Assembly: GCA_903879915.1 (NCBI GenBank)
Contig: CAIRNJ010000081.1
Span: 1 to 37,673, forward strand
DNA: 37,673 nucleotides
Direction: 5' to 3'
From: an uncultured Elusimicrobia bacterium
GTDB lineage: Bacteria > Elusimicrobiota > Elusimicrobia > Elusimicrobiales > UBA9959
In this document: piece after piece, positions 18,910-35,687 of the stretch
Numbering within the stretch: the first letter of the stretch is position 1
How the letters are laid out: every line of letters starts with the position of its first letter
Made by a program: the position numbers and the translations under genes
Notes under the pieces: model-generated
Told to the model about the DNA's origin: nothing
Databases searched by the model: none
The model's input: only the letters and a program-made list of their open reading frames with translations

Positions 18910-20739
18910 TCAGAGGTCGGTCATGTAGGCTATCTCGTCGTAAGGAGTGCGGTACAGCGGCTGCTTCAGCCTTTTCTGGTCGAAGATATGGCCGAAGATG
19001 CCGATGGAGCGCCCCACCACGAACAGCGCGTTCAGGCAGCCCATGGCCACGATGTTATCGATCTCTTCCTTCGCGAAAGAGCCGCAGCTGTTGAGCATGT
19101 CGACGAAGCAGATGCCTATGCAGCCGTCCACGTTCAGGATCAGGTTGCCTTTCTTGGACGACGTGATCTTCTCCACTTCCAGCGCGTAGTCCAGCAGTTC
19201 CGTCTTCCTGAAATGCTTCCGGCAGAACGCCTTCAGCTGCGTCACGCGCATGTCGGGGTTGGAGATGCTCTTCACCCTGTGGCCGATGCCCGGGATGTTA
19301 AGCCCCTTCTCCTTCATGTCGCGCACGAACTGCGCCGGCGTGAGGCCGGAATCCCTGGCGCGCTTGAAGTTCTGCGCCGCGTCGTCTATGGCGCCGCCGA
19401 AGCGCGGGCCGATGGTAAGCAGGCCCGAAGCCAGCGCCGAGATGATGTCCTTGCCCGCCCGCGCCGCCACTATGGCGTTATGCGCGCCGGACACCGCGGG
19501 GCCGTGGTCGGCCACCAGCATCAGCGCCGTTTCAAGGAAGCTGCGGCCGTAGGCCGGCAGGTCGCGCTTGAACCAGAGCAGGCCTATCACGCCGCCAAGC
19601 CCCATGCCGCTGTCCAGCACTTTCGAGATCGGCATATTGCAGTATTCCAGCTCTTCCTTCTTCTCGTTGGAGATGGTGTTGATGAACGTGGTGGCCTTGC
19701 GGATCTTCCCCTCTTTCATCGCCTGCGCGAAGTCCATCGGCAGCGCCGGGGCGGCTACTTCCGCCGCGGGCTTTATGGCGCCTTTCTTCACCAGCTTCTC
19801 GTAAGTCTTCTTTATCATCACGCCGTAGTCGTCGAACGAGTCCGGCACTATGGCGCCGGCGGCCTTCAGCGCCCTGTTCTTCGCCTCGGCGGTCTCCAGG
19901 TCGGAGCCGGCTTTGGCGCCGGCGTGGCCGAACTGCACGCCCGCCGGGAACATCTTGGAGCAGGTGCCGGTGACCCAGATCACCAGCGGCTTCTTTACCG
20001 CGCCGCTCTTGAGGGCGTCCACTATGCGCAGCTCCTCGGTGCCGCCTATCTCGCCCAGGGCCACGATCAGCTTCACTTCCGGTATGGCCTCGTAGCGCAG
20101 GATGTGCTCGAGCAGCGTCGATCCCGGGTAGGCGTCGCCGCCTATGGCTATGCCCTCGTAAAGGCCGTCGGTGTTGCGGGCTATGATGTTGTAGCACTCG
20201 TTGGAAAGCCCGCCCGACTTGGACACGAAGCCCACGGAGCCGGGCCTGTGCAGCTTGGATTCCACTATGTTCTCGTAGGTGCCGGCGGTGTTGGCTATCT
20301 TGAAGCAGCCGGCCTTGATGCCGCCCACGGTGGCCGGCCCTATCACCATCTTGTCGAGCTTCTTGGCGGTGGCGGCCAGGATCCGGGCGCGGCGCTCCGG
20401 TATGCCCTCGGCTATCACGGCCACGGTGCGGATGTTCTTGTGCTCCAGCGCTTCCATGCTCGAGGCGAACGCGCTGCGGAAGGAAGCGAAGTTCACGCAC
20501 ACGTCCGCCTTCGGGTGGTTCTCGGCGGCCCTGGCCAGCGTCCGGTACATGGGCAGCAGTATCTCCCCTTTCCCGAAGAAGGCCTTGTGCACGCCTTCGC
20601 GGCCCGGGTCCACTATGGCGGCCACCGACGGCACCTTGCGCCCGCAGGCGTAGTCGAAGTCCAGCATGCGCTGGATGGCGTTGGTGTGGTAGCCGTAAAC
20701 TATAGCTGTGGTGTCTTTGGTGAAAAGTTCAGGTTTCAT
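18910..20739 (-). CDS. aclA: ATP citrate lyase, large subunit (CoA-ligase and citrate-synthase-like domains)
   Basis: 609 aa, close to the length of AclA of green sulfur bacteria (and of the subunit called ACLB in plants). The N-terminal half is a succinyl-CoA-synthetase-like CoA-binding/ligase part with the phosphohistidine motif QFGHAGAKAG (His272) and SKSGGLSNE. The C-terminal half (about 340-609) is the citrate-synthase-like lyase domain with DHGPAVSGAH (411-420), IGPRFGGAIDDAA and GIGHRVKSISNPD (484-496). The enzyme splits citrate with ATP and CoA into acetyl-CoA and oxaloacetate in the cytosol. The ATG overlaps the small-subunit stop by four bases and has GGGAGG upstream. It is the last gene of the aconitase-aclB-aclA operon. 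Confidence 0.96.
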   Translation of the reverse strand: MKPELFTKDTTAIVYGYHTNAIQRMLDFDYACGRKVPSVAAIVDPGREGVHKAFFGKGEILLPMYRTLARAAENHPKADVCVNFASFRSAFASSMEALEHKNIRTVAVIAEGIPERRARILAATAKKLDKMVIGPATVGGIKAGCFKIANTAGTYENIVESKLHRPGSVGFVSKSGGLSNECYNIIARNTDGLYEGIAIGGDAYPGSTLLEHILRYEAIPEVKLIVALGEIGGTEELRIVDALKSGAVKKPLVIWVTGTCSKMFPAGVQFGHAGAKAGSDLETAEAKNRALKAAGAIVPDSFDDYGVMIKKTYEKLVKKGAIKPAAEVAAPALPMDFAQAMKEGKIRKATTFINTISNEKKEELEYCNMPISKVLDSGMGLGGVIGLLWFKRDLPAYGRSFLETALMLVADHGPAVSGAHNAIVAARAGKDIISALASGLLTIGPRFGGAIDDAAQNFKRARDSGLTPAQFVRDMKEKGLNIPGIGHRVKSISNPDMRVTQLKAFCRKHFRKTELLDYALEVEKITSSKKGNLILNVDGCIGICFVDMLNSCGSFAKEEIDNIVAMGCLNALFVVGRSIGIFGHIFDQKRLKQPLYRTPYDEIAYMTDL

Positions 20740-22004
20740 TTCTTTTTGCCTCCCAGGGCCATTGAAACTACCGAGGTCATGTGGGTTTCGGGCCCGTAGA
20801 CCTCGATGGGCACGCCGAGCGTGGCCCCCAGTTTGCGCATGTTGTCCAGGCCTTCCTTGTAGTTGGGCCCGCCGCGCCGCACGTAGATCTTCACCTTGTT
20901 CTCGACAAGTTTCGTCCTGTACTCGGTGAGGGCCTTTATGATGCCCTTGAAGGTCTTGGCCACGTCGGTGAAGTTGGCTATGCCGCCGCCTATTATCAGC
21001 ACCTTGCCTTTAACGGTGTTCTCGCGCGTCATCAGGTCAAGAACGGTCCTGGCGTACTGGTAGGTATCCTCGGCCGACGGATCGCCCGAATATTCGCCGT
21101 AGTTGGCCAGCTCCCTGGAGTAGCCGAGGTCGCAGACGGTATCCGCGTAGATCACCGACGCGCCGCCGCCCGCCACCATGTTCCAGATGCGGCCCTTGGG
21201 GTTGAGCATGGTCAGCTTAAGGCTCGCGCCGGTCTTTTCGTCGAGGCTCCGGATGAAGTCCTCTTCCGGGGTATGCTTGGAGCCGAACGAGGCCGGGAAT
21301 TCCAGGCCGCCCCAGATCCTGGCGCATTCGAAGGCCGCGGTGTCGTCCACCCGCGCCACCAGGTCCAGCGGCACGATGTTGTCGCCGGAGAAAGTGAAGG
21401 GGTTGATCTCCAGGTAGGTGAAGCCGCCCTCGGCGTACACTTTATAAAGGGCTTTCACGAACTCGGCCACCTGCGCCGTGCGCGGGCCCAGGTCGGGCAT
21501 GTTCAGCTTAACGTCGTCGATGGAGGCCAGGATGGGCACCTCGGTCTCTTTTACGGCGCCCCAGTTCTCCTCCACGTAAATGCCGCCCTTGTCGGAGAGG
21601 TAGATGGTATCGCCGTCGCGGGCGGCGCGGATGGCCACGTAGCCTTCCTCGTCGTCCCGGTGGGGCGTGAAGGGCTCTATCAGGAAGTCCTGCAGCTCGC
21701 CGGTGGTATGCCCCACCGTCACCGTTTTGTTCATCCGCTCGGTTATCCACGCCCAGGCGGTCTTCCAGTCGGCGTTCAGGCACAACAGCCCGTGCTTGCC
21801 GCGCTTGCCGAACAGCTGGTCGGGCTTTACCACCAGCTTTTCTTTGGCCAGCCAGGGGTTGTCCTTTAAAAGTTTTTTGGGATCGGTATCCGGCCTGACC
21901 AGCGCCAGTTTTTTGGACCTGCCTTCGAAAGAAGGCAGGTATTTCGCCAGTCCGTCAAAAAGTATCTTCTTGCCTTCGTATTCTCTTATTCCGCGTTGTG
22001 CCAT
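20736..22004 (-). CDS. aclB: ATP citrate lyase, small subunit (ATP-grasp/citrate-binding)
   Basis: 422 aa. The N-terminal ATP-grasp half begins MAQRGIREYEGKKILFDGLA and contains KLVVKPDQLFGKRGKHGLL, typical of the ATP-binding subunit. The second half has LNPKGRIWNMVAGGGASVIY, ANYGEYSGDPSAEDTYQYAR and GKVLIIGGGIANFTDVAKTF, the citrate/phosphate-binding portion. The symbol follows Chlorobium usage, in which aclB is the small subunit; plants use the opposite letters. It has AAGGA before the ATG. A 71-base gap with a strong hairpin separates it from aconitase, and it overlaps the large subunit by 4 bases. Confidence 0.96.
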   Translation of the reverse strand: MAQRGIREYEGKKILFDGLAKYLPSFEGRSKKLALVRPDTDPKKLLKDNPWLAKEKLVVKPDQLFGKRGKHGLLCLNADWKTAWAWITERMNKTVTVGHTTGELQDFLIEPFTPHRDDEEGYVAIRAARDGDTIYLSDKGGIYVEENWGAVKETEVPILASIDDVKLNMPDLGPRTAQVAEFVKALYKVYAEGGFTYLEINPFTFSGDNIVPLDLVARVDDTAAFECARIWGGLEFPASFGSKHTPEEDFIRSLDEKTGASLKLTMLNPKGRIWNMVAGGGASVIYADTVCDLGYSRELANYGEYSGDPSAEDTYQYARTVLDLMTRENTVKGKVLIIGGGIANFTDVAKTFKGIIKALTEYRTKLVENKVKIYVRRGGPNYKEGLDNMRKLGATLGVPIEVYGPETHMTSVVSMALGGKKK

Positions 22005-22036
22005 GTTATTTTCCTTTTAGAGGGTGTCGAGCTTAA

Positions 22037-22065
22037 GCGCCGCGCGGGACCGGCCCGCGCGGCGC
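22037..22065. other. Strong intercistronic hairpin between aconitase and aclB
   Basis: A 12-bp all-GC perfect inverted repeat (22037-22048 with 22054-22065) with a 5-base loop, located after the aconitase stop and 32 bases before the aclB ATG. On the minus strand the stem is followed by TTAAGCTC, not a T-run, so it is unlikely to be an efficient terminator. It could stabilise the 3' end of the upstream mRNA segment or tune the amount of lyase relative to aconitase. Confidence 0.6.
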
Positions 22066-22075
22066 GCCTTTGGTT

Positions 22076-24010
22076 TTATTTGCCCGTCGTATGGTTAAGA
22101 AGGCCGCCCGCCGCCAGGATGGCCCGCTGGCGCGCCGACAGCGCGCAGACGCATTCTATCGAAGCGCCCGTGCGCCCGTTCCTGAGCATTACCGGCCTGC
22201 CCTCGGCCGCCGCGGCCCGCCAGTCCGCGCAGGTCAGCTTGTCGCCGGCCTGGATGGAGGCGTAATCAGCGGGGTTCCTGAAGGTCAGCGGCGCTATGCC
22301 GAAGTTAAGCAGGTTCGCCGCGTGGATGCGCTCGAAGGATTTCGCCGCCACCGCTTTCACGCCCAGGTACATCGGGCACATGGCGGCGTGCTCGCGGCTG
22401 GAGCCCTGGCCGTAGGATTCCCCCGCCACTATCACGTTATGCGCGTCCGCGGCCTTGCTTTCGAGGGCCCGTTTGGCGAAGGTGCCGTCCACGTTCTCGA
22501 ACACGTACTGCGCGTATTTCGGCACGTTGGAGCGGTATTTCAGCCGCGCCCCGGCGGGCATGATATGGTCGGTGGTGATCTTGTCCCCCACCACTATCAT
22601 CACCGCGCCGTTAAGCTGTTCCGGCATCCTGCCGTTCTTGGGCGGCTCGCCGATGTTAGGGCCGCGGAACACTTCGGTGCTCTTCAGTTCGGGAGCGGGC
22701 TTGATGAACATGGAGTCGTCCACCAGGAAGGCGGCCGGCTCTTTCACGTTGGGGTACGGGATGCCGGCCTTGCGGGGGTCGGTGAACTTGCCGGTCACGG
22801 CGGCCAGCGCGGCCACCTCGGGGCTCACCAGGTAAACCTGCGCGTCGGCGGTGCCGCTGCGGGCCTCGAAGTTGCGGTTCGAGGTGCGCAGGCTCACGCC
22901 GCCGCTCTTGGGCGAAAAGTGGTTGCCTATGCAGAAGCCGCAGGCGCTTTCCAGGATGCGCGCGCCTGAGTCCAGCAGGTTCGCGAGCGCCCCTTTGCGG
23001 GCCATCATCTGCAGCACCTGGCGCGAGCCGGGCGCCACGCCCAGGCTGACGCTGGCGTGCACTTTGCGGCCCTTCAGCACTTCGGCCGCGGTCATCATGT
23101 CCTTGTAGGAGGAATTGGTGCAGGAGCCTATGCAAACCTGGTCCACGGCCTTGCCTTCCAGCTCGGAGACCTTCTTCACTATGCCCGGGCTGTGAGGGCA
23201 GGCGGCCATCGGCTCTACGGCCGAAAGGTCCAGCTCTATCACGCGGTCGTACTTCGCGCTGCGGTCGGCCTTCAGCTCGCTCCAGTCGGCCTCGCGGCCC
23301 TGGGCCTTCATGAATTTCTTCGTAACGCCGTCGGACGGGAACACGGAACAGGTTACGCCCATCTCGGCGCCCATGTTGGCTATGGTGGCGCGCTGCGGCA
23401 CGGAAAGTTTCTTCACCCCGGGGCCGCCGTATTCCAGCATCACGCCCACGTTGCCTTTGGTGGACAGCAGCTCCAGCATCTTCAGCACCACGTCCTTGGC
23501 GGTCACCCACGGCTGCAGTTCGCCGGTAAGCTTCACCAGGTAAACTTTGGGGGCCGCGGTGTAGAACAGCCCGCCGCCCATCGCCACGGCCACGTCCAGG
23601 CCGCCGGCGCCTATGGCTATCTGGCCTATGCCGCCGCCGGTGGGAGTATGGGAATCGGAGCCCAGCAGCGTGGTGCCGGGCTTGCCGAAGCGCTCCAGGT
23701 GCACCTGGTGGCAGATGCCGTTGCCGGGGCGGGAATAGACCACTCCGTATTTAGCGGCCACGGTGGCCAGGTATTTGTGGTCGTCGGCGTTCTCAAAGCC
23801 CACCTGCACGGTATTGTGGTCCACGTACGAGACCGAAAGATCTGTTTTTATTTCCTTCAGGCCCATGGCTTCGAACTGCAGGTAGGCCATGGTGCCGGTG
23901 GCGTCCTGCGTAAGGGTCTGGTCTATGCGTATGCCTATCTCTTTGCCGGGCACGTAATCGCCTTCCCGCAGATGAGCGCTCATTATCTTTTCAATGATGT
24001 TCTGTCCCAT
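22076..24010 (-). CDS. acn: Aconitate hydratase (short monomeric bacterial type)
   Basis: 644 aa, the length of the compact aconitases of many anaerobes, shorter than AcnA (about 890) or AcnB (about 865). The 4Fe-4S ligands are Cys297 (CIGSCTNSS), Cys357 and Cys360 (ACGFCIGNHFSP; many relatives have GCGPC). Other active-site phrases are GSDSHTPTGGGIGQIAIGAG (118-137), TSNRNFEARSGT (376-387) and GQGSSREHAAMCPMYLGVKA. It interconverts citrate and isocitrate through cis-aconitate. As first gene of the operon it links isocitrate to ATP citrate lyase. The ATG at 24010 has AAGGAG 8 bases upstream and a well-formed promoter beyond. Confidence 0.96.
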   Translation of the reverse strand: MGQNIIEKIMSAHLREGDYVPGKEIGIRIDQTLTQDATGTMAYLQFEAMGLKEIKTDLSVSYVDHNTVQVGFENADDHKYLATVAAKYGVVYSRPGNGICHQVHLERFGKPGTTLLGSDSHTPTGGGIGQIAIGAGGLDVAVAMGGGLFYTAAPKVYLVKLTGELQPWVTAKDVVLKMLELLSTKGNVGVMLEYGGPGVKKLSVPQRATIANMGAEMGVTCSVFPSDGVTKKFMKAQGREADWSELKADRSAKYDRVIELDLSAVEPMAACPHSPGIVKKVSELEGKAVDQVCIGSCTNSSYKDMMTAAEVLKGRKVHASVSLGVAPGSRQVLQMMARKGALANLLDSGARILESACGFCIGNHFSPKSGGVSLRTSNRNFEARSGTADAQVYLVSPEVAALAAVTGKFTDPRKAGIPYPNVKEPAAFLVDDSMFIKPAPELKSTEVFRGPNIGEPPKNGRMPEQLNGAVMIVVGDKITTDHIMPAGARLKYRSNVPKYAQYVFENVDGTFAKRALESKAADAHNVIVAGESYGQGSSREHAAMCPMYLGVKAVAAKSFERIHAANLLNFGIAPLTFRNPADYASIQAGDKLTCADWRAAAAEGRPVMLRNGRTGASIECVCALSARQRAILAAGGLLNHTTGK

Positions 24011-24200: not shown

Positions 24201-25739
24201 TTATTTGGGGATCTGGAGCTCGAACCTGTTGCCTCCTGCGGATACTATCACGTTCTGCTTCGTTATCGAAGTAAAAACACCTTTGACGGATCTCCCGCTC
24301 TCGTAGAACATCTTTCCGTTCTTAACTATATAGGATCCGCCGGGCCCGACGAGGATGGCCGAAGAGCCGGAAGGATCGGCGAAAACCCCTGAAACTTTCA
24401 GCTCTTTGAGATAGGCGAAGGTGTCTGGCGCCGGGGCGGCCTTCCTGGGCGCGGCCGGCGCCGCCGGAGGCTGTTTTTCGGCATACTGTTCCTCCGCGGT
24501 TTCACGCGTTTTGTCCAGATCCGCGCGCAGCACCGACAATTCGGCCCGGCGCTTCAGCGTTTCGGCGCTTATCCTGCCGTTGAGCAAATTATAACCGTAA
24601 TAGGCCGCGGCCAGGGCCGAGAGAAGCAGGAAATAGACGGCTATCCTGCCGGCGTAACTGGGGCGCCGCAGCAGCGCCTTGGGCAGCAGGTTTATGTGCG
24701 TGAACAGCTCCGCGCGCTCACGGGGGAACCTGCGTATCGACAGGCCGGCCGCTACCGAGAAACGCGGGAGGAAGATCTCCACCGGAACGCCGAACGCCGC
24801 GGTCAGATATTTGTCCAGCCCGGGCAGTTCGGCCGAACCGCCGGTAAGCACCAGCCTGGCGGCGCGCATGCCGGGGCCGGGAGTTTTCTCCGCGTAATAC
24901 GCGATGGTCCGTTTTATTTCGGCGATGATCTGGTCCACCCGCCCGGAAAGCAGGCCGGAGGCCTTTATGGCCAGCTGTTCGTCCTGCTTCAGCGTGTCGG
25001 AGGCGCTGGCCGGCCTGGCTTTGAACCGCGCCAGCAGCCCGTGCGTTTTTTTAAAAGCTTCGGCGGCCGCCGGCGTGATAGCCAGCTCCCGCTGCAGCGT
25101 CACGCTGAGATTGTTCCCGGCCAGGAAAACGGTGCGCACCGCCAGCACAAGCCCCCCGCTCATAACGGCCAGCTCCGTAGCGTTGGCCCCGATGTTAATT
25201 ACGAATACCAGCCCTTTTTCATCGGGCGCCAGGGAGGACAGATAGGCGTTGAGCACGGCGAAAATATTCACGTCGGCTATCACGGGCACAAGGCCCGCGT
25301 TCCTGACGATCTCGGCGCGGTCCTCTACCTCCCCCCGGTCGGCGGTCACCGTCAGCGTCTTTTTTCCGGACGCCGCGCCCGCGCTCCCCGCCGCCAAAGG
25401 CTGTATATAGGTTTCTTCTTCCGTGGTCTCGAGGCGCATCTCTCCGGCGGCGGTATTCTGCGGCGACCGGGTTATGTCCACTGCTGCGGCGGTAGTCGGG
25501 ATGCCTATTACCGCCGTTTTCGTGCGTATTTTATGCGCGGCCAGGACCTTTTTGAGCGCTGCCACGTACGCTTCCGACTTGCCTTTAGGGCCGCCGGCCG
25601 TGCTGAGATCTATTTCGCCGCTGACGGCGCGCAGCGGCTCCTGCCTGCCGCCCGAGAACCTGGTCTCCACTATTTTAATGGAATGCGTCCCCAGGTCTAT
25701 TCCCAGCACGTTTTCATCCGAAAAGGGCGTTAATTTCAT
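24201..25739 (-). CDS. pilM: Type IV pilus PilM protein fused to PilN-like and PilP-like parts
   Basis: 512 aa. Residues 1 to about 340 are a PilM actin-like ATPase: LGIDLGTHSIKIVE (12-25), FVINIGANATELAVM (179-193) and RLVLTGGSAELPGLDKYL (295-312). Next comes INLLP (349-353), the motif at the N-terminus of PilN that docks into PilM. It is followed, as in PilN, by a transmembrane helix (about 363-383) and a short coiled coil (about 388-420). A Pro/Ala linker leads to a C-terminal beta-rich domain (about 444-512: VSGVFADPSGSSAILVGPGG, then a Tyr-x-Val and a closing hydrophobic strand) resembling PilP/GspC periplasmic domains. The chain would span the inner membrane and act as a one-piece pilus alignment complex. 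GGAGGAG lies before the ATG. The gene starts 52 bases after the radical SAM stop. No other pilus gene is in the window. Confidence 0.88.
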   Translation of the reverse strand: MKLTPFSDENVLGIDLGTHSIKIVETRFSGGRQEPLRAVSGEIDLSTAGGPKGKSEAYVAALKKVLAAHKIRTKTAVIGIPTTAAAVDITRSPQNTAAGEMRLETTEEETYIQPLAAGSAGAASGKKTLTVTADRGEVEDRAEIVRNAGLVPVIADVNIFAVLNAYLSSLAPDEKGLVFVINIGANATELAVMSGGLVLAVRTVFLAGNNLSVTLQRELAITPAAAEAFKKTHGLLARFKARPASASDTLKQDEQLAIKASGLLSGRVDQIIAEIKRTIAYYAEKTPGPGMRAARLVLTGGSAELPGLDKYLTAAFGVPVEIFLPRFSVAAGLSIRRFPRERAELFTHINLLPKALLRRPSYAGRIAVYFLLLSALAAAYYGYNLLNGRISAETLKRRAELSVLRADLDKTRETAEEQYAEKQPPAAPAAPRKAAPAPDTFAYLKELKVSGVFADPSGSSAILVGPGGSYIVKNGKMFYESGRSVKGVFTSITKQNVIVSAGGNRFELQIPK

Positions 25740-25790: not shown

Positions 25791-26912
25791 TCATATCCTG
25801 GCGCCGCTCCCCCCTCCGCCGCCGGCGAGCAAAGCTTTTACTTTCCGGACCGCCGCACTGGCGAGCAGGCCGGGCAGGGACGGCCAGTGGAAGATAAGGC
25901 TGGCGTTCACCGCGCATTCGAAAGTGCAGGAGCATTTCGTCCGTTCGATATAGCCGCGGGCGGCGGCGCAGGCCGCCCCTCCCAGTATTTTTTTAATATC
26001 GTAGCCGCTGCCGCGCAGGCCGCCGAGGCAGCGGTCCATAAGTTCGCAGGGGAACACGCGGCCGGTTTCGCTGATGACCACCAGTTTCCTGCCGGCCAGG
26101 CAGGGCAGGCGCGCGCGCCCGCCGAGCAGTCTGGCCGCTATTATGCCCCGGCTTTTCTCCGCCACCGCGCGCAGCAGCCCGTGCCAGGGCCGGGCGTCGC
26201 TGCCCGTCAGCGGAACCGCCAGCCGTTCGCACAGGGCCAGGTAGCCAGCCGGGCCGGGGGCGGCCGCGGCCGGCTCCCGGGTGTCCCCCCGTACCCAGGT
26301 GACGCTGTAATTATCCGCCCGGAAATTGGCTTTTACGAAGTCGAACAGTTCGGCTGCCCGGTGCTCGTTAAGGCGCGAATATACCGTGTTCAGGTCTATC
26401 AGCAGGTTCCCGTACCGCGCGCGCAGCGGCAGCAGGGCCTTATATGTGGCCGTCAGCTTCTCATAAGCGCCGGGCATGCCGCGCACGCGGTCGTGCTCCT
26501 CCCCTGCGCCGTCTATGGACAGCGCTACGCGGATGACCGTGCGCGGGTTCTCTTCGAGCATGCGCGCGACCATCGCGGGGATCCGGTCCGGCAGCGACCC
26601 GTTCGTGGGGATGGTGAGATAGCGGACGCGGTTGTTGCGCGCGAACAGCGCGGCTATTTCACAAAGGTCGGCGCGCAGGAAAGGCTCCCCGCCCGTCAGG
26701 GAAAGCTGGACTATATCGGAAAAGCCGCGGGAGATCTTTTCCAGTTCCGCCAGCGTCAGCTCGTCCTCCGCCCGGGCGGCGGCCTGCTGCTTCCAGTAGA
26801 AGCACATGCCGCAGCGCTGGTTGCAGCGGGCGGTGACGTACAGGATGACGTACGGCGGGGTGGGCGTACGGAAAAGGGTGTAAAGCAGGCCGAGCCGCCC
26901 GGCGGGTTTCAT
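25791..26912 (-). CDS. Radical SAM protein with C-terminal Cys-rich (SPASM-like) region
   Basis: 373 aa from the ATG at 26912, chosen because it gives an ATGA overlap with the glycosyltransferase; the reading frame stays open further upstream but that part is a shadow of the other gene. The radical SAM cluster motif is CNQRCGMC (Cys30, 34, 37), with SLTGGEPFLR as the SAM-binding GGE segment. The C-terminal part has several Cys (LPCLAGRKL, VFPCELMD, KCSCTFECAVN) that could bind one or two auxiliary iron-sulfur clusters, as in SPASM proteins. It would perform S-adenosylmethionine-dependent radical chemistry on a peptide, protein or carbohydrate; the substrate is unknown. It is the third gene of the radical SAM / GT2 / radical SAM operon. 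Confidence 0.9.
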   Translation of the reverse strand: MKPAGRLGLLYTLFRTPTPPYVILYVTARCNQRCGMCFYWKQQAAARAEDELTLAELEKISRGFSDIVQLSLTGGEPFLRADLCEIAALFARNNRVRYLTIPTNGSLPDRIPAMVARMLEENPRTVIRVALSIDGAGEEHDRVRGMPGAYEKLTATYKALLPLRARYGNLLIDLNTVYSRLNEHRAAELFDFVKANFRADNYSVTWVRGDTREPAAAAPGPAGYLALCERLAVPLTGSDARPWHGLLRAVAEKSRGIIAARLLGGRARLPCLAGRKLVVISETGRVFPCELMDRCLGGLRGSGYDIKKILGGAACAAARGYIERTKCSCTFECAVNASLIFHWPSLPGLLASAAVRKVKALLAGGGGGSGARI

Positions 26913-27931
26913 GGCGCCCCGCGCCGGCGCGCGAAGGGATCGGCCGGACAGAACAGCGAATAGACCACGGCTTCCAGCGCACCGAAAACTATCACGAACG
27001 AGAACAGGAACAGCCAGACGGCGCTGAGGGCGGAGAACAGCGCGCCTTTTTTCTTCAGGCAGAAGCCGATGAACCCGGCGTGCCCGGCCGCGGCTACGAG
27101 CAGCAGGAGCGCCGAAAGCGCCAGCAGCGCCGGCCCGGCTGCTGGGGGCGCGGACAGCGCCAGGAGGAAAGCCGCCAGGGAAAGCGGCGCGGACACGGCC
27201 GCTGCGGCCGCGGCCGGCGTGGCCAGCACCTCGTCGAAGCGCCGGTGTTTCATAAAATAGGCCATCCACCAGAAAACGCGGTGGCGGAAGATATAGAACA
27301 GCTTGTTGAAACCGCCGAAATGGTGGCCTACCTGCACGCGGGGGTCCAGCAGCAGCCTGCCTACGGCGGCCACGCGGCGCCCGAACTCGTCGTTCTCTAT
27401 GTCCACGCCGGCGGGGAAAGCGGAAAAGCCGCCGGCGCTGAAGAACGCCTCCCGGCGGATAGCCGCGCACTGGGAGGCGAACACGTTGTAGCTGAGCCCC
27501 GGTTTGCGGCTTAAAGCGTAATGCTTCAGCAGGCAGTAATATTCGGCGAAGAAGCCTGGGCGCAGCGGCTCGTCGGAATAGATGCCCACCACGCCGGCTA
27601 TGGAAGGATCGCTGAAATGCGCCGCCGCCCTGGCTATGGTGTCCGGCCGCATGGCCGTGTCGGCGTCCACGAAGAACAGGATGTCTCCCGCGGCCGCCCG
27701 CGCGCCGGCGTTGCGCGCGGCCGCCGGCCCCTGCGCCGGGGCCAGGGTGATCACCCGGCCTCCGAGCCCGCGCGCGATGGCGGCCGTGCTGTCCTCGGAG
27801 CCGTCGTCCACCACTATCACCTCCAGCGGGCGGCAGGAAGCCCCGGCCACGGAGCGCAGGCACTGCTCCAGCGTCGCGGCGGCGTTATGCGCCGGGACTA
27901 TCACCGACACCCCGGGGAGACCATGCTTCAT
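26909..27931 (-). CDS. Family 2 glycosyltransferase, membrane-anchored
   Basis: 340 aa from the ATG at 27931 (MKHGLPGVSVIVPAHN), preferred over an upstream in-frame start at 27991 because it makes a 4-bp ATGA overlap with the preceding radical SAM gene and puts the GT-A fold at the true N-terminus. Nucleotide-sugar motifs are VIVVDDGSEDST and the metal-binding FVDADT (Asp89, Asp91). EAFFSAGGFSAF and a DIENDEFGRR acceptor-loop Glu/Asp segment follow. Three to four hydrophobic helices occupy the C-terminal third (about 225-330), anchoring it in the inner membrane. It transfers a sugar to a lipid, glycan or protein acceptor on the cytoplasmic face. It sits between two radical SAM genes. Confidence 0.92.
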   Translation of the reverse strand: MKHGLPGVSVIVPAHNAAATLEQCLRSVAGASCRPLEVIVVDDGSEDSTAAIARGLGGRVITLAPAQGPAAARNAGARAAAGDILFFVDADTAMRPDTIARAAAHFSDPSIAGVVGIYSDEPLRPGFFAEYYCLLKHYALSRKPGLSYNVFASQCAAIRREAFFSAGGFSAFPAGVDIENDEFGRRVAAVGRLLLDPRVQVGHHFGGFNKLFYIFRHRVFWWMAYFMKHRRFDEVLATPAAAAAAVSAPLSLAAFLLALSAPPAAGPALLALSALLLLVAAAGHAGFIGFCLKKKGALFSALSAVWLFLFSFVIVFGALEAVVYSLFCPADPFARRRGAP

Positions 27932-29028
27932 GACAGCGCCCCGGACAACCCGTTGAAGAGCAGGTTCAGCTCGGTCTGGCAGTTCCAGCAACAGTCCCTG
28001 CAGCGGCCTGCCTCAAGCCCCGCCGCGGCGAATTGGGGAGAGCGCGCGAACTCTTTCAGGGAGGTGCGGCGCACGCTGCCCACCTTCCTGCCCGTCTGCA
28101 GCCGGGGGAAGCAGGGATAAACTCCGCCGGAAGCGTCCACGGCTATGGTCGCCTGCATGGCGTAGCACTTCAGCGGGGAAGGTTCCCCCCTGAAGCTGCG
28201 CATGAACAGGGCCAGGTAGCGCGCGGTGTTCTCCATCACGGGCTCGGTCCTTTTCAGGGCTATCAGCCCGCTCATTACTTTTTCTGCCAGCGCGAGGTCG
28301 GTCACCCGGAGCCGGTCCGCCGCGGCGCCGTCCAGGTCCAGCGCGTGGAACGGCATGAAACCTATACCGTCAACGCCCAGGCTGCGGGCGAAAGCCGGCA
28401 TCTCCGGCGCCTCGGCCAGGTTCAGGCCGTTGAGCACCATAACCAGGTTCAATTTGGTCTTCCCGCCCCGGGCCGCCCTGAGCTCCAGGAAGCGCGCTAT
28501 GTTCCTGAGCAGCGCGTCGAAAGAGGTAAGCCCCCGCAGGGAATCGTGCGTGGCGGCCGTCACGCCGTCCAGCGAAACGTTGATCCCCTCGATGCCCGAA
28601 GCGAGCAGCAGCTCTATGCGCCTGTCGTCGAGCAAAGTGCCGTTGGTGCTCAGCCAGACGCCCATGCCCCGTCTTTTTATGTGGGCGAAGAGCTCGAAGA
28701 TATCGTCCCTCAGCAGCGGCTCCCCGCCGGTGACGCCGATCACTTCGGCCCCGGCGTCTTTAAGACCGTCTATGACGCGCCTGAACTCTTCCAGGGTCAG
28801 TTCCGGCTCCGGCGGCGCCGCGCCGTCCGGTCCGCCCAGGCGGCAGATGGCGCAATGCGAATTGCACCGCCGGGTCACGCTGAGGGTGGCGAACAGAGGT
28901 ACGCAGACCGGCCTGCCGGCGGCGGCGGCCGCTTTTATTTTCAGGTAGCTGAACAGCATCTTGAAGGGCCACAGCGGGCGGCCGCCGAGAACGGTTCGTT
29001 TGAGCAGGCCGGCGTAAGAATGTCTCAT
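27928..29028 (-). CDS. Radical SAM/SPASM domain protein
   Basis: 366 aa. The radical SAM cluster is CNSHCAIC (Cys55, 59, 62), followed by GVTGGEPLLRDD and LSTNGTLLDD. The C-terminal part carries a SPASM-type Cys set (KCYAM, GGVYPCFPR, then CRDCCWNCQTELN). Such proteins modify peptides (RiPP and quinohaem maturases) or act as anaerobic maturases and lipid or sugar modifiers. It is the first gene of a three-gene operon. No Shine-Dalgarno is visible before the ATG, and the promoter lies about 75 bases upstream. No precursor peptide gene was found next to it. Confidence 0.92.
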   Translation of the reverse strand: MRHSYAGLLKRTVLGGRPLWPFKMLFSYLKIKAAAAAGRPVCVPLFATLSVTRRCNSHCAICRLGGPDGAAPPEPELTLEEFRRVIDGLKDAGAEVIGVTGGEPLLRDDIFELFAHIKRRGMGVWLSTNGTLLDDRRIELLLASGIEGINVSLDGVTAATHDSLRGLTSFDALLRNIARFLELRAARGGKTKLNLVMVLNGLNLAEAPEMPAFARSLGVDGIGFMPFHALDLDGAAADRLRVTDLALAEKVMSGLIALKRTEPVMENTARYLALFMRSFRGEPSPLKCYAMQATIAVDASGGVYPCFPRLQTGRKVGSVRRTSLKEFARSPQFAAAGLEAGRCRDCCWNCQTELNLLFNGLSGALS

Positions 29029-32976: not shown

Positions 32977-35634
32977 TCACGGGCCTGCGCGCACGCAACG
33001 GACGTGGACGGTGTTAGTCTTAAGGACACCGAGTATATTGCCATTGCCGAAGTATATGACATACGCGTATGTAGTATCGCTCTCTGTGGAACCCCAATAG
33101 TCGCTGCTGCTAAAATTTCCAACCACAGCTTGTTGGCCATATAATAACGATAATTCAGCCGTTGAAGGCAGATACCAGTCGTCATAATACTCGCCATTTA
33201 CTACAGCGCTGTAATCGTTGCAGAGCTGCGCGGCATTGCCTGATCCCAGAGTGGTGCTGATCATAACCGTATTCGCTTTCCCAGCGTATACAGCATTAAG
33301 AGTTGCCCCTGTATAGCCGCTCTTCCACTGCATGGACGTACTTTGGTCCGCTGTCGCGGCAATTAAACCATGCCTTCCGGAGGCGTCCAGCCAGAAGATC
33401 TTCCCGCCGCCGTAACTGTCCCCTATCGCCAAGGCGCCGGTGGCGGCTGTCTGCCAGGCCGCAAGTCCGTTTGCGTCGGAGGTCAGCACCTTGCCGGCGC
33501 CCTGCGTGCCGTCGACCAGTTTAAATGTTCCGACTACCGTAAAGGTCGAAGTGGGCGTAATGGTCCCGATTCCTACTTTGCCGGCGCTGTCCACCGCGAA
33601 AGCGGCGGCGCTGGCCACTGGCGCTGTCGAAATTATGAATCCGCCCCTGTTCTTGAACCAGGTCCTGTCGGCGACGGCATTGTTAACAACCGTCCCCTCC
33701 GAGTCCGCCCAGGTAAAAGCGCCGTTGGCGGTGGAAGAAGAGGCATATCCCGCGGCGAATGAATAATCTCCCTTCGCCGTACTTTTATATCCGCCGATCA
33801 CGGTGGACGCGTATCCGTTCGCCGTGTTTTGATATCCGCCGCCCACGGTGGCATAATCTCTGCTCGCCGTATTTTCAGTTCCGCCCGGCACGGTGGCATA
33901 CCAGTGGCTCGCCGTGTTTTGATAGCCGCCGCCCACGGTGGCCGCCACTCCGCTCGCCGTGTTTTGATATCCGCCGGCCACGGTGGAGTTGTCGGTGCTC
34001 GAAGTGTTGTATCTGCCGCCGCCTATCACGGAATACTGGCCGGACGCGACCTGCGCGGCCGCACTTCTGTTCATCTGCAGATCCACGGCATTTACGCCGC
34101 GGGCGTTGCCGGCTACGACGCCGCCGGTGGATTGTATTACGGTATTAAAGAACAGACCGTTACTAAAGGTGTTCTGCCCGGTGAAGGTCTGCGTGGAGGC
34201 GAGATACACATCCCCGTAGGCGGCGGGAGTCGTCCAGGAAGCAAGGCCGTCCGCGGCGGAGGTAAGCACCTTGCCGGCGCCCTGCGTGCCGTCCTGCAAC
34301 GTAAATGTTCCCACAACGGTAAACGTGGAGGTCGGCGTAATGGTGCCGATACCGACTTTACCTGCACTGTCCACCGCGAACGCGGCGGAGCTTGCCACCG
34401 TGGTCGTCGAAATCAGGAACCCGCCCCTGTTCTTGAACCAGGTCCTGTTGGCGACATTATTAGTGACTACCGTCCCCTCCGCGTCCGCCCAGGTAAAAGC
34501 GCCGACCGCGGTGGAATAGGAGTAGTACCCCGCGGCGAATGACCCATCTCTCGTAGCCATGTTTCCTAGTCCGCCGGCCACGACAGCATTAGCACCGCTC
34601 GCCGTGTTTGACTGTCCGCCGGACACAGTAGCTTGATCGCCGCTCGCCGTGTTGCTAATTCCGCCGGACACAGTGGACGCAAAGTTACTCGCCGTGTTGC
34701 CGCGGCCGCCAGCCGTGATGGAATAATTCCCGCTCGCCGTGTTCCATTGCCCGCCGCCTATTACGGAAGCATAGCCGGATGCTACCTGTGTGACTGAGCC
34801 TCTGTTTGTCTGCAGATCAACGGCATTGCCCCCGCGGGGATTGCCGACGTAGCCGCCGTTGCCGGGGCCGGTGGACTGTATTATGGAATCGAAAAAGACG
34901 CCATGGCTGAAGATGTTCAACCCGGTAAAGGTCTGCGTGGAGGCGAGATACACATCCCCGTAGGCGGCGGGAGCTGTCCAGGAAGCAAGGCCGGCTGCGT
35001 TAGAGGTAAGCACCTTGCCGGCGCCCGGCGTGCCGCCGGCTATCTTTACCTGGCCGGCTACCACGATATCGGAGCTGACCGTCACCATGTTCACAAAAGT
35101 GTTCTGCCCGGTAAAGGTCTGCGTTGCGGCAAGAACGACGTCCCCGGTGCCGATAGCGGGCTTATTGATTATCCCGCTCCAATCCGCGCCCGCAGCCCAG
35201 GCGGAGGTGGCGCTATTTACGGAATATGCCGCGGTGCCGCTGTTTATGGAGTATAAAGAGTAAACCGAAGAAACCAGTTGATAGCGGGGCAGCATTTCGC
35301 TGTCGGTCCCCACCGTAACGCCAAGCCAATAAGCGGTGGAAAAACTTACATTTAAAGGCGTGACCGTCCCCAGCAGCACGGTGTAAATGCCGTATTCGTC
35401 CGGCGTCACGTTCTGGGTTTCCTGCCAGACCGCCGCGCCGCCGGTGTTGGCGGTATAGAGTTTAAACACCATCGGGACAGCGCTGGTTACAGCTTTCCCG
35501 GCCGAGTCGGTAAGCTTGCCCTGGAAGCTGATCAGTTCCGGCACAGCCGCGCGCGCTGTTGCCGCGAATGTAAACATTATAACCAGCCCCGCCAGCGCGG
35601 CGCATAAAATCATTGTTTTTTTACTGTTTTTCAT
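32977..35634 (-). CDS. Large modular surface fibre: YadA-like heads, duplicated module, DUF1566-type tip
   Basis: 885 aa from the ATG at 35634, preferred over the in-frame ATG at 35658 because CGGAGA lies about 7 bases upstream and the N-terminus then starts MKNSKKTM with a clean signal peptide (to about TARA-AVPE). An N-terminal domain (ELISFQGKLTDSAGK onward, about 90 residues) is shared with the fibre at 1-1517. Two long, closely similar modules follow. Each has a run of 15-residue head repeats (NTASGxxxTVxGGxx), a WFKNRGGFxIST segment and a VDSAGKVGIGTITPTSTFTV strand. The last about 140 residues (GGGKIFWLDASGRHGLIAAT, then DDWYLPSTAELSLLYGQQ and VRCVRAGP at the end) match DUF1566/Lcl C-type-lectin-like domains. 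No membrane anchor is present. Adhesion is the likely role. Confidence 0.9.
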   Translation of the reverse strand: MKNSKKTMILCAALAGLVIMFTFAATARAAVPELISFQGKLTDSAGKAVTSAVPMVFKLYTANTGGAAVWQETQNVTPDEYGIYTVLLGTVTPLNVSFSTAYWLGVTVGTDSEMLPRYQLVSSVYSLYSINSGTAAYSVNSATSAWAAGADWSGIINKPAIGTGDVVLAATQTFTGQNTFVNMVTVSSDIVVAGQVKIAGGTPGAGKVLTSNAAGLASWTAPAAYGDVYLASTQTFTGLNIFSHGVFFDSIIQSTGPGNGGYVGNPRGGNAVDLQTNRGSVTQVASGYASVIGGGQWNTASGNYSITAGGRGNTASNFASTVSGGISNTASGDQATVSGGQSNTASGANAVVAGGLGNMATRDGSFAAGYYSYSTAVGAFTWADAEGTVVTNNVANRTWFKNRGGFLISTTTVASSAAFAVDSAGKVGIGTITPTSTFTVVGTFTLQDGTQGAGKVLTSAADGLASWTTPAAYGDVYLASTQTFTGQNTFSNGLFFNTVIQSTGGVVAGNARGVNAVDLQMNRSAAAQVASGQYSVIGGGRYNTSSTDNSTVAGGYQNTASGVAATVGGGYQNTASHWYATVPGGTENTASRDYATVGGGYQNTANGYASTVIGGYKSTAKGDYSFAAGYASSSTANGAFTWADSEGTVVNNAVADRTWFKNRGGFIISTAPVASAAAFAVDSAGKVGIGTITPTSTFTVVGTFKLVDGTQGAGKVLTSDANGLAAWQTAATGALAIGDSYGGGKIFWLDASGRHGLIAATADQSTSMQWKSGYTGATLNAVYAGKANTVMISTTLGSGNAAQLCNDYSAVVNGEYYDDWYLPSTAELSLLYGQQAVVGNFSSSDYWGSTESDTTYAYVIYFGNGNILGVLKTNTVHVRCVRAGP
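33745..34044 (-). repeat. Head-repeat array B (45-bp period, about six units)
   Basis: Six consecutive 15-residue units of the form NTAS-x-x-x-A-T-V-x-G-G-Y-Q encode the second head region. At DNA level the phrase CTCGCCGTGTTTTGATA recurs nearly unchanged (around 33818, 33908 and 33953 on the plus strand). The pattern resembles the head repeats of YadA-type trimeric adhesins. Confidence 0.75.
34515..34785 (-). repeat. Head-repeat array A (45-bp period, about five units)
   Basis: Five consecutive 15-residue units (NTASGNYSITAGGRG, NTASNFASTVSGGIS, NTASGDQATVSGGQS and so on) form the first head region. The unit length is the same as in array B but the DNA has diverged more. Confidence 0.75.
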
Positions 35635-35687
35635 AGACATTCTCCGATAACTTTTCATAAAAATCTTGTCCCGGCTTTAACAATCAC

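Follow-up and report, generated by a model that had tools for sequence, protein, structure and literature searches.

The minus-strand open reading frame at positions 24201..25739 of the window, i.e. the whole analysed stretch of 37,673 nucleotides from an uncultured Elusimicrobia bacterium (genome G000), encodes a natural single chain of 512 aa that joins PilM, PilN and PilP, an assignment supported by the translation and by homologues in 7 other Elusimicrobiota genomes. This protein is quite probably the inner-membrane alignment component of a compact type IV filament machine that lacks PilO, the copy in the window being a relic left after the decay of the parent system. The evidence consists of the domains of the chain, its operon in related genomes, its co-occurrence with a particular secretin and the loss of parts of the machine in the window genome, all of which are directly observed. 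The fusion is not the full sum of the three proteins: the periplasmic domain of PilN is lost and PilO is skipped. An earlier sequence-only reading of this DNA had given the open reading frame, its coordinates and the order of the domains correctly, and its view of the protein as a natural PilM-PilN-PilP chain that includes the docking motif of PilN is borne out by profile, profile-profile and fold comparisons.

Domains of the fusion protein

The PilM-like, actin-fold ATPase domain (aa about 5-340; 24720..25727, minus strand, as are all features of the gene given below) is cytoplasmic by homology and is recognized by family models, structures and fold. Pfam PilM_2 (PF11104) matches residues 13-325 (E 3.4e-22) with 79 bits against a cut-off of 27, and TIGR01175 (pilM) matches residues 10-330 (E 1.6e-30) with 106 bits, under its curated cut-off of 133; family models thus place this part in the PilM family, the former over its threshold and the latter below it. 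The PDB matches are PilM proteins (3jc8, E 2.6e-46; 2ych, E 3.3e-29), as are the best Foldseek matches. The match to Amuc_1101, a PilM-like protein of Akkermansia, is confined to the PilM part (140-324 of 608). The conserved aspartate of the phosphate-2 motif (DxG) is replaced by Asn-182 in the window copy (25194..25196). In alignments, the equivalent position is Asp in the fusions of G002, the sister species, and of G003, G021 and G023; the Asp is also absent from the fusions of G196, G205 and G206 and from the canonical PilM of the window genome, which has Asn. Because this canonical PilM shares the Asn, the aspartate does not strictly define PilM, and Asn-182 would not be proof of inactivity. 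Furthermore, 18 PilM residues present in the fusions of G023 and G003 are missing at the junction of aa 323/324 (24770..24771) in the window copy; this gap is common to G002, and the G021 fusion is without 6 of the same 18 residues.

The PilM domain is followed by INLLP (aa 349-353; 24681..24695), the PilN-type motif for docking into PilM, which each of the seven intact fusions has in the form [IV]NL[LV]P. Next come a predicted single, PilN-like membrane segment (aa 361-379; 24603..24659), identified by hydropathy and the PilN profile, and a PilN-like helix or coil (aa 380-420; 24480..24602). By hydropathy alone the membrane segment is borderline, with a KD19 value of 1.49 in the window copy and 1.6-2.0 in the other six fusions; the residues between INLLP and this segment include K/R and no D/E, which is consistent with an N-in topology. 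Comparisons were made with reference sets of 42 canonical PilM, PilN and PilO proteins each and 39 PilP proteins, taken from pil operons of Elusimicrobiota. The profile of the 42 PilN proteins of this phylum matches residues 348-415 of the fusion, and in profile-profile comparison the region 340-440 of the seven fusions matches PilN at 95.5% (E 1.4e-8), covering approximately the first 72 of 183 PilN residues. The controls for the same region are at 46% for PilO and 0.1% for PilP, the former because the stretch is a generic membrane segment with a coil. The alignment of the fusion profile with the PilM:PilN1-12 chain of PDB 5eou extends across INLLP, and in several relatives the profile continues beyond the stop codon of pilM into the downstream pilN reading frame. 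Together with the profile-profile match, these observations identify the stretch as the start of PilN.

The periplasmic ferredoxin-like domain of PilN is missing: the profile alignment stops at approximately position 74 of 183, ahead of a Pro/Ala-rich linker of 18 residues (aa 421-438; 24426..24479) that occupies the expected place of this domain and leads to the PilP domain. In the AlphaFold2 model, residues 360-420 form a helix of locally low confidence; the full-length model, built from four sequences, has a mean pLDDT of 56.6 and falls below 50 over residues 325-366, which span INLLP. The PilN assignment leans on the motif, the predicted membrane segment and the putative coil, and this is to be counted against the best explanation.

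The C-terminal domain (aa 439-512; 24204..24425) is an all-beta domain of the PilP/GspC homology region (HR) type. The canonical PilP profile matches residues 439-503 (E 9.4e-7 at a database size of 1e5), and hhalign aligns the domain with PilP at 98.4% (E 5.5e-15), with PilM, PilN and PilO controls at no more than 0.4%. The AlphaFold2 model of the domain has a pLDDT of 90, and a Foldseek search of the PDB with this model returns PilP chains in the first six places and a GspC-HR chain in the ninth (E 0.02-0.2, probability 0.96-1.0); structurally, GspC-HR corresponds to PilP (PMC3169554). The sequence search of the PDB is weak, the best match being PilP at E 0.7, and it is the fold comparison that settles the identity of the C-terminus. 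Hence, the relationship of the last ~70 residues to PilP/GspC, claimed in the sequence-only reading, withstands structural search. Instead of being a separate lipoprotein, as PilP is, the domain is the C-terminal part of the 512-aa chain and has no N-terminal lipobox of its own. Pfam and NCBIfam report the PilM part alone, as would be expected of an ordinary PilM extended at the C-terminus by unrelated sequence, but this candidate was rejected since profile, profile-profile and structure comparisons all recover PilP, and it is now scarcely credible.

Distribution and parent operon

The fusion was detected in 8 of the 341 Elusimicrobiota genomes, in two families: five carriers, one of them with a frameshifted gene, belong to the genus of the window genome and three to a genus of another family. 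In one member of each family (G023 and G196), the genes follow the same order, namely, extension ATPase, platform protein, two prepilins, a PilX/GspK-like protein, the fusion and a secretin. The partial contigs of G206 and G205 match this order as far as they reach; in G003, the fusion and the secretin lie beside a divergent set of ATPase, platform and prepilin genes that includes other pilins, and the operon set of G021 is without the secretin. No PilN, PilO or PilP genes were found among the open reading frames of the fusion operons, which, lacking PilO, depart from the PilMNOP composition of type IVa alignment complexes. The combination of ATPase, platform protein, prepilins and secretin that characterizes the type IV filament superfamily is found in G023, G196 and G003, and is not found in the window genome itself.

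Secretins of the type encoded next to the fusion (at least 50% identity) are present in 7 genomes, all of them among the 8 carriers of the fusion; the remaining carrier is G021, in which no such secretin was found. The hypergeometric probability of this co-occurrence is 8e-14, a value calculated as if the genomes were independent, although they are not. In the PilM tree, the fusions lie on one side of a branch with support of 99/96, where long branches meet, so a single origin of the fusions can be proposed with caution. The conserved operon, the co-occurrence with the secretin and the single group in the tree, taken together, indicate that the fusion belongs to a compact machine of its own, in which it is the alignment component. 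Binding of the HR domain to the N0 domain of the secretin would fit the pairing of the two genes and the co-occurrence of the fusion with an STN/N0-bearing secretin, and would parallel the contact of GspC-HR with GspD-N0 (PMC3169554).

A scan of contigs with two short peptide patterns, which would miss distant relatives, recovered four fusion loci, all from Elusimicrobia, and a search of plasmids for the fusion returned plain PilM-like matches only. A match in G044 that contains a stop codon, tried as a broken fusion, is actually a canonical pilM followed by pilN. The fusion operon of G003 encodes an unusually large prepilin of 883 aa (L035, 10932-13583) with carboxypeptidase-regulatory-like domains and a weak match to a lamin-tail domain. 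The ATPase of the G023 operon (L039, 13612-15646) contains an MshEN domain, and a receiver-domain protein is encoded ahead of it. In known proteins, MshEN is a c-di-GMP-binding domain; its presence together with the receiver-domain protein suggests that the G023 machine could be under signal control.

Alignment complexes and probable decay in the window genome

The genome of the window also encodes a complete pilM-pilN-pilO-pilP-pilQ operon (contig C50, locus L004), to the PilM of which the PilM part of the fusion is approximately 30% identical. This operon is the very result that the sequence-only reading had named as fatal to its proposal that the fusion replaces separate pilN and pilP genes, and replacement is therefore rejected. 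The fusion does represent all three families in one chain; nevertheless, that it stands in for PilM, PilN and PilP in the main type IV pilus of the cell is highly improbable given the complete pilMNOPQ set in the same genome, the canonical pilM also present in G002, G003, G021 and G023, and the separate operon of the fusion in relatives. Contamination at C50, which could have rescued replacement, is argued against by the grouping of the canonical PilM of the window genome with that of its congener G023 (94/99). A further locus (contig C59; L051, 9740-14412) encodes a GspL-like PilM-PilN chain with a periplasmic part, GspM/PilO-like and GspC/PilP-like proteins, together with a secretin, an ATPase and a platform protein of its own. 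The window genome shows three alignment-complex architectures, those of C50, C59 and the fusion. In addition, the PilB/GspE-type ATPase family is matched 14 times in this genome, with some of the matches perhaps being pieces of one gene, which suggests that type II/IV-like systems or retraction ATPases might be numerous. The assembly comprises 112 contigs (99.2% complete, 4.5% contamination) and the genomes compared are mostly drafts, so that absences are not absolute.

Most parts of the parent operon have no dedicated counterpart in the window genome. The PilX/GspK-like protein has no match there; the only two platform proteins are at most 35% identical to that of the operon and belong elsewhere, one beside PilB/PilT-like ATPases on C61 and the other in the type II secretion-like set of C59; and no ATPase exceeds 47% identity, compared with 65-78% in intact systems related to that of G023. 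What is left of the secretin is an open frame on another contig (C26, 74951-75580) that encodes 239 aa with a signal and the N0-N1 domains, without the pore domain. The secretin frame of the sister species G002 (C70, 10016-10756), also still open, stops after N1 at the identical place, and the G002 fusion gene has lost its reading frame through a deletion of about 67 nt. Between G000 and G002, dN/dS is 0.27 in the N part of the fusion and 0.48 in the rest, compared with 0.07-0.29 in flanking genes, and 0.37 in the secretin fragment; the values are below 1 with p 1.1e-5 for the fusion and 1.5e-4 for the fragment. Over the whole divergence of G000 and G002, selection has been relaxed, not absent.

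The window genome is most simply read as having lost the machine, with recent decay of what remained. Its copy of the fusion most likely no longer serves a functional machine and is a relic on which selection has been relaxed; given the intact frame and dN/dS below 1, some function may remain. It is less likely that the leftover pair has been re-used, either to form a scaffold across the envelope or to regulate another filament system. Re-use would account for the constraint on both frames (0.27-0.48 and 0.37) and for the retention of N0, the binder of PilP/GspC-HR in known systems, and exaptation of this kind has a precedent in the PilMNO homologues and the PilQ-N1 domain of the flagellar motor in Campylobacterota (PMC11870540). 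However, the fusion of G002 is broken by a deletion, the constraint is weaker than in the neighboring genes, and the two remnants lie on different contigs, all of which makes re-use improbable. There is similarly little to recommend the combined reading, in which Elusimicrobiota possess a working, envelope-spanning filament machine with a one-protein alignment complex that lacks both PilO and the periplasmic domain of PilN, and the remnant in the window lineage, the fusion and the pore-less secretin fragment, is kept by selection and re-used as membrane scaffold or regulator.

Within the window, as annotated with Pfam, the gene is detached from other pilus genes, just as the sequence-only reading had stated. 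Its position beside radical SAM genes is real as well; what does not hold is to take this isolation as the original arrangement, since the operons of relatives and the parts missing from G000 mark it as a derived state that followed the loss of the parent operon. The upstream radical SAM protein (25791..26858, minus strand) and the downstream aconitase (22076..24010, minus strand) are both conserved in G002 and lie outside the machine.

On the minus strand at 18910-24010, the window encodes this aconitase in tandem with an ATP-grasp/citrate-binding protein and a CoA-ligase/citrate-synthase protein. By domain content, the latter two appear to be the subunits of ATP-citrate lyase, a pair that could support the reductive TCA cycle or citrate cleavage. 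At 25791-29028 (minus strand), an MftF-like glycosyltransferase is flanked by two radical SAM/SPASM proteins, possibly a cassette for peptide modification or glycolipid synthesis. An 893-aa protein with repeated motifs resembling trimeric adhesin heads (UspA1_rep) and an Lcl_C domain, encoded at 32977-35658 (minus strand), is a probable surface protein.

Proposed machine and comparison with known fusions

In the proposed PilO-less machine, the PilM part would take the cytoplasmic position at the extension ATPase that GspL and PilM occupy, and the PilN motif fused to it would dock into the PilM part of the same chain or of a neighboring one. The single predicted membrane helix and the coil would then cross the inner membrane, and the terminal HR domain would bind N0 of the dedicated secretin. 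In this manner, a single chain could link the motor to the outer-membrane pore without any need for PilO, and the machine would assemble a filament or a pseudopilus.

The parent operon might instead encode a pseudopilus exporter similar to type II secretion, with the fusion being a GspL-GspC fusion. GspL itself has been described as a fusion of PilM and PilN (PMC10191384), the likeness of GspC-HR to PilP (PMC3169554) is compatible with this assignment, the platform protein, the PilX/GspK-like protein and the secretin would also fit type II secretion, and the operon contains no retraction ATPase. Several features argue otherwise: the PilM part matches PilM models and PilM structures in the PDB, [IV]NL[LV]P is the motif of PilN, the ATPase of the operon bears an MshEN domain, and a separate, clearly GspL/M/C-like set is encoded at C59. 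An exporter is, on these grounds, a possible but rather doubtful alternative to a type IV filament machine. The choice between the two is mostly one of naming, the job of the fusion being the same in either case.

GspL keeps a periplasmic ferredoxin-like domain. A close analogy to the fusion is the type II secretion protein GspL/PulL, the protein that has been called a PilM+PilN fusion (PMC10191384) and in which a cytoplasmic PilM fold and a PilN-type membrane segment are likewise combined in one chain; GspL/PulL, however, has the ferredoxin-like domain and no PilP/GspC-HR, whereas the window fusion has lost the former and gained the latter, and so is not a GspL by domain composition. Natural in-frame joining of PilM and PilN is also known from Clostridioides difficile (PMC6916266) and from most type IV pili of Campylobacterota, where the clusters keep the order pilMNOPQ (PMC11870540), but PilP is not joined in these cases. 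Conversely, the PilO-PilP fusion of Pseudomonas putida (Q88CU9), as cited in PMC3169554, carries the PilP HR domain in cis on an inner-membrane alignment protein, but there the partner is PilO, whereas the window fusion joins PilP to PilM-PilN and has no PilO. PDB 5eou (ATP-bound PilM:PilN1-12 of P. aeruginosa) shows PilM followed by the INLLP motif of PilN in one chain, but is a crystallized construct with the PilN peptide only, with neither membrane segment nor PilP. The canonical operon at C50 comprises the same three families, but as separate genes, with complete PilN and PilO. A PilM-PilN-PilP fusion was not found in the open-access literature, the scope of the search, and its novelty is provisional with respect to subscription papers.

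The bridge from motor to secretin is often taken to require all four of PilM, PilN, PilO and PilP. Whether these proteins are essential or merely stabilizing is debated (PMC10191384), and a natural operon that appears to manage with one chain and no PilO bears on which of their contacts are essential; alignment by a single chain also bears on the ratio of subunits from motor to pore. The window copy adds the caution that an isolated fusion gene can be the remnant of a lost machine and not a substitute for the standard genes. Altogether, neighbors within this complex fuse differently depending on the lineage, PilM with PilN, PilO with PilP and, here, PilM, PilN and PilP with PilO skipped.
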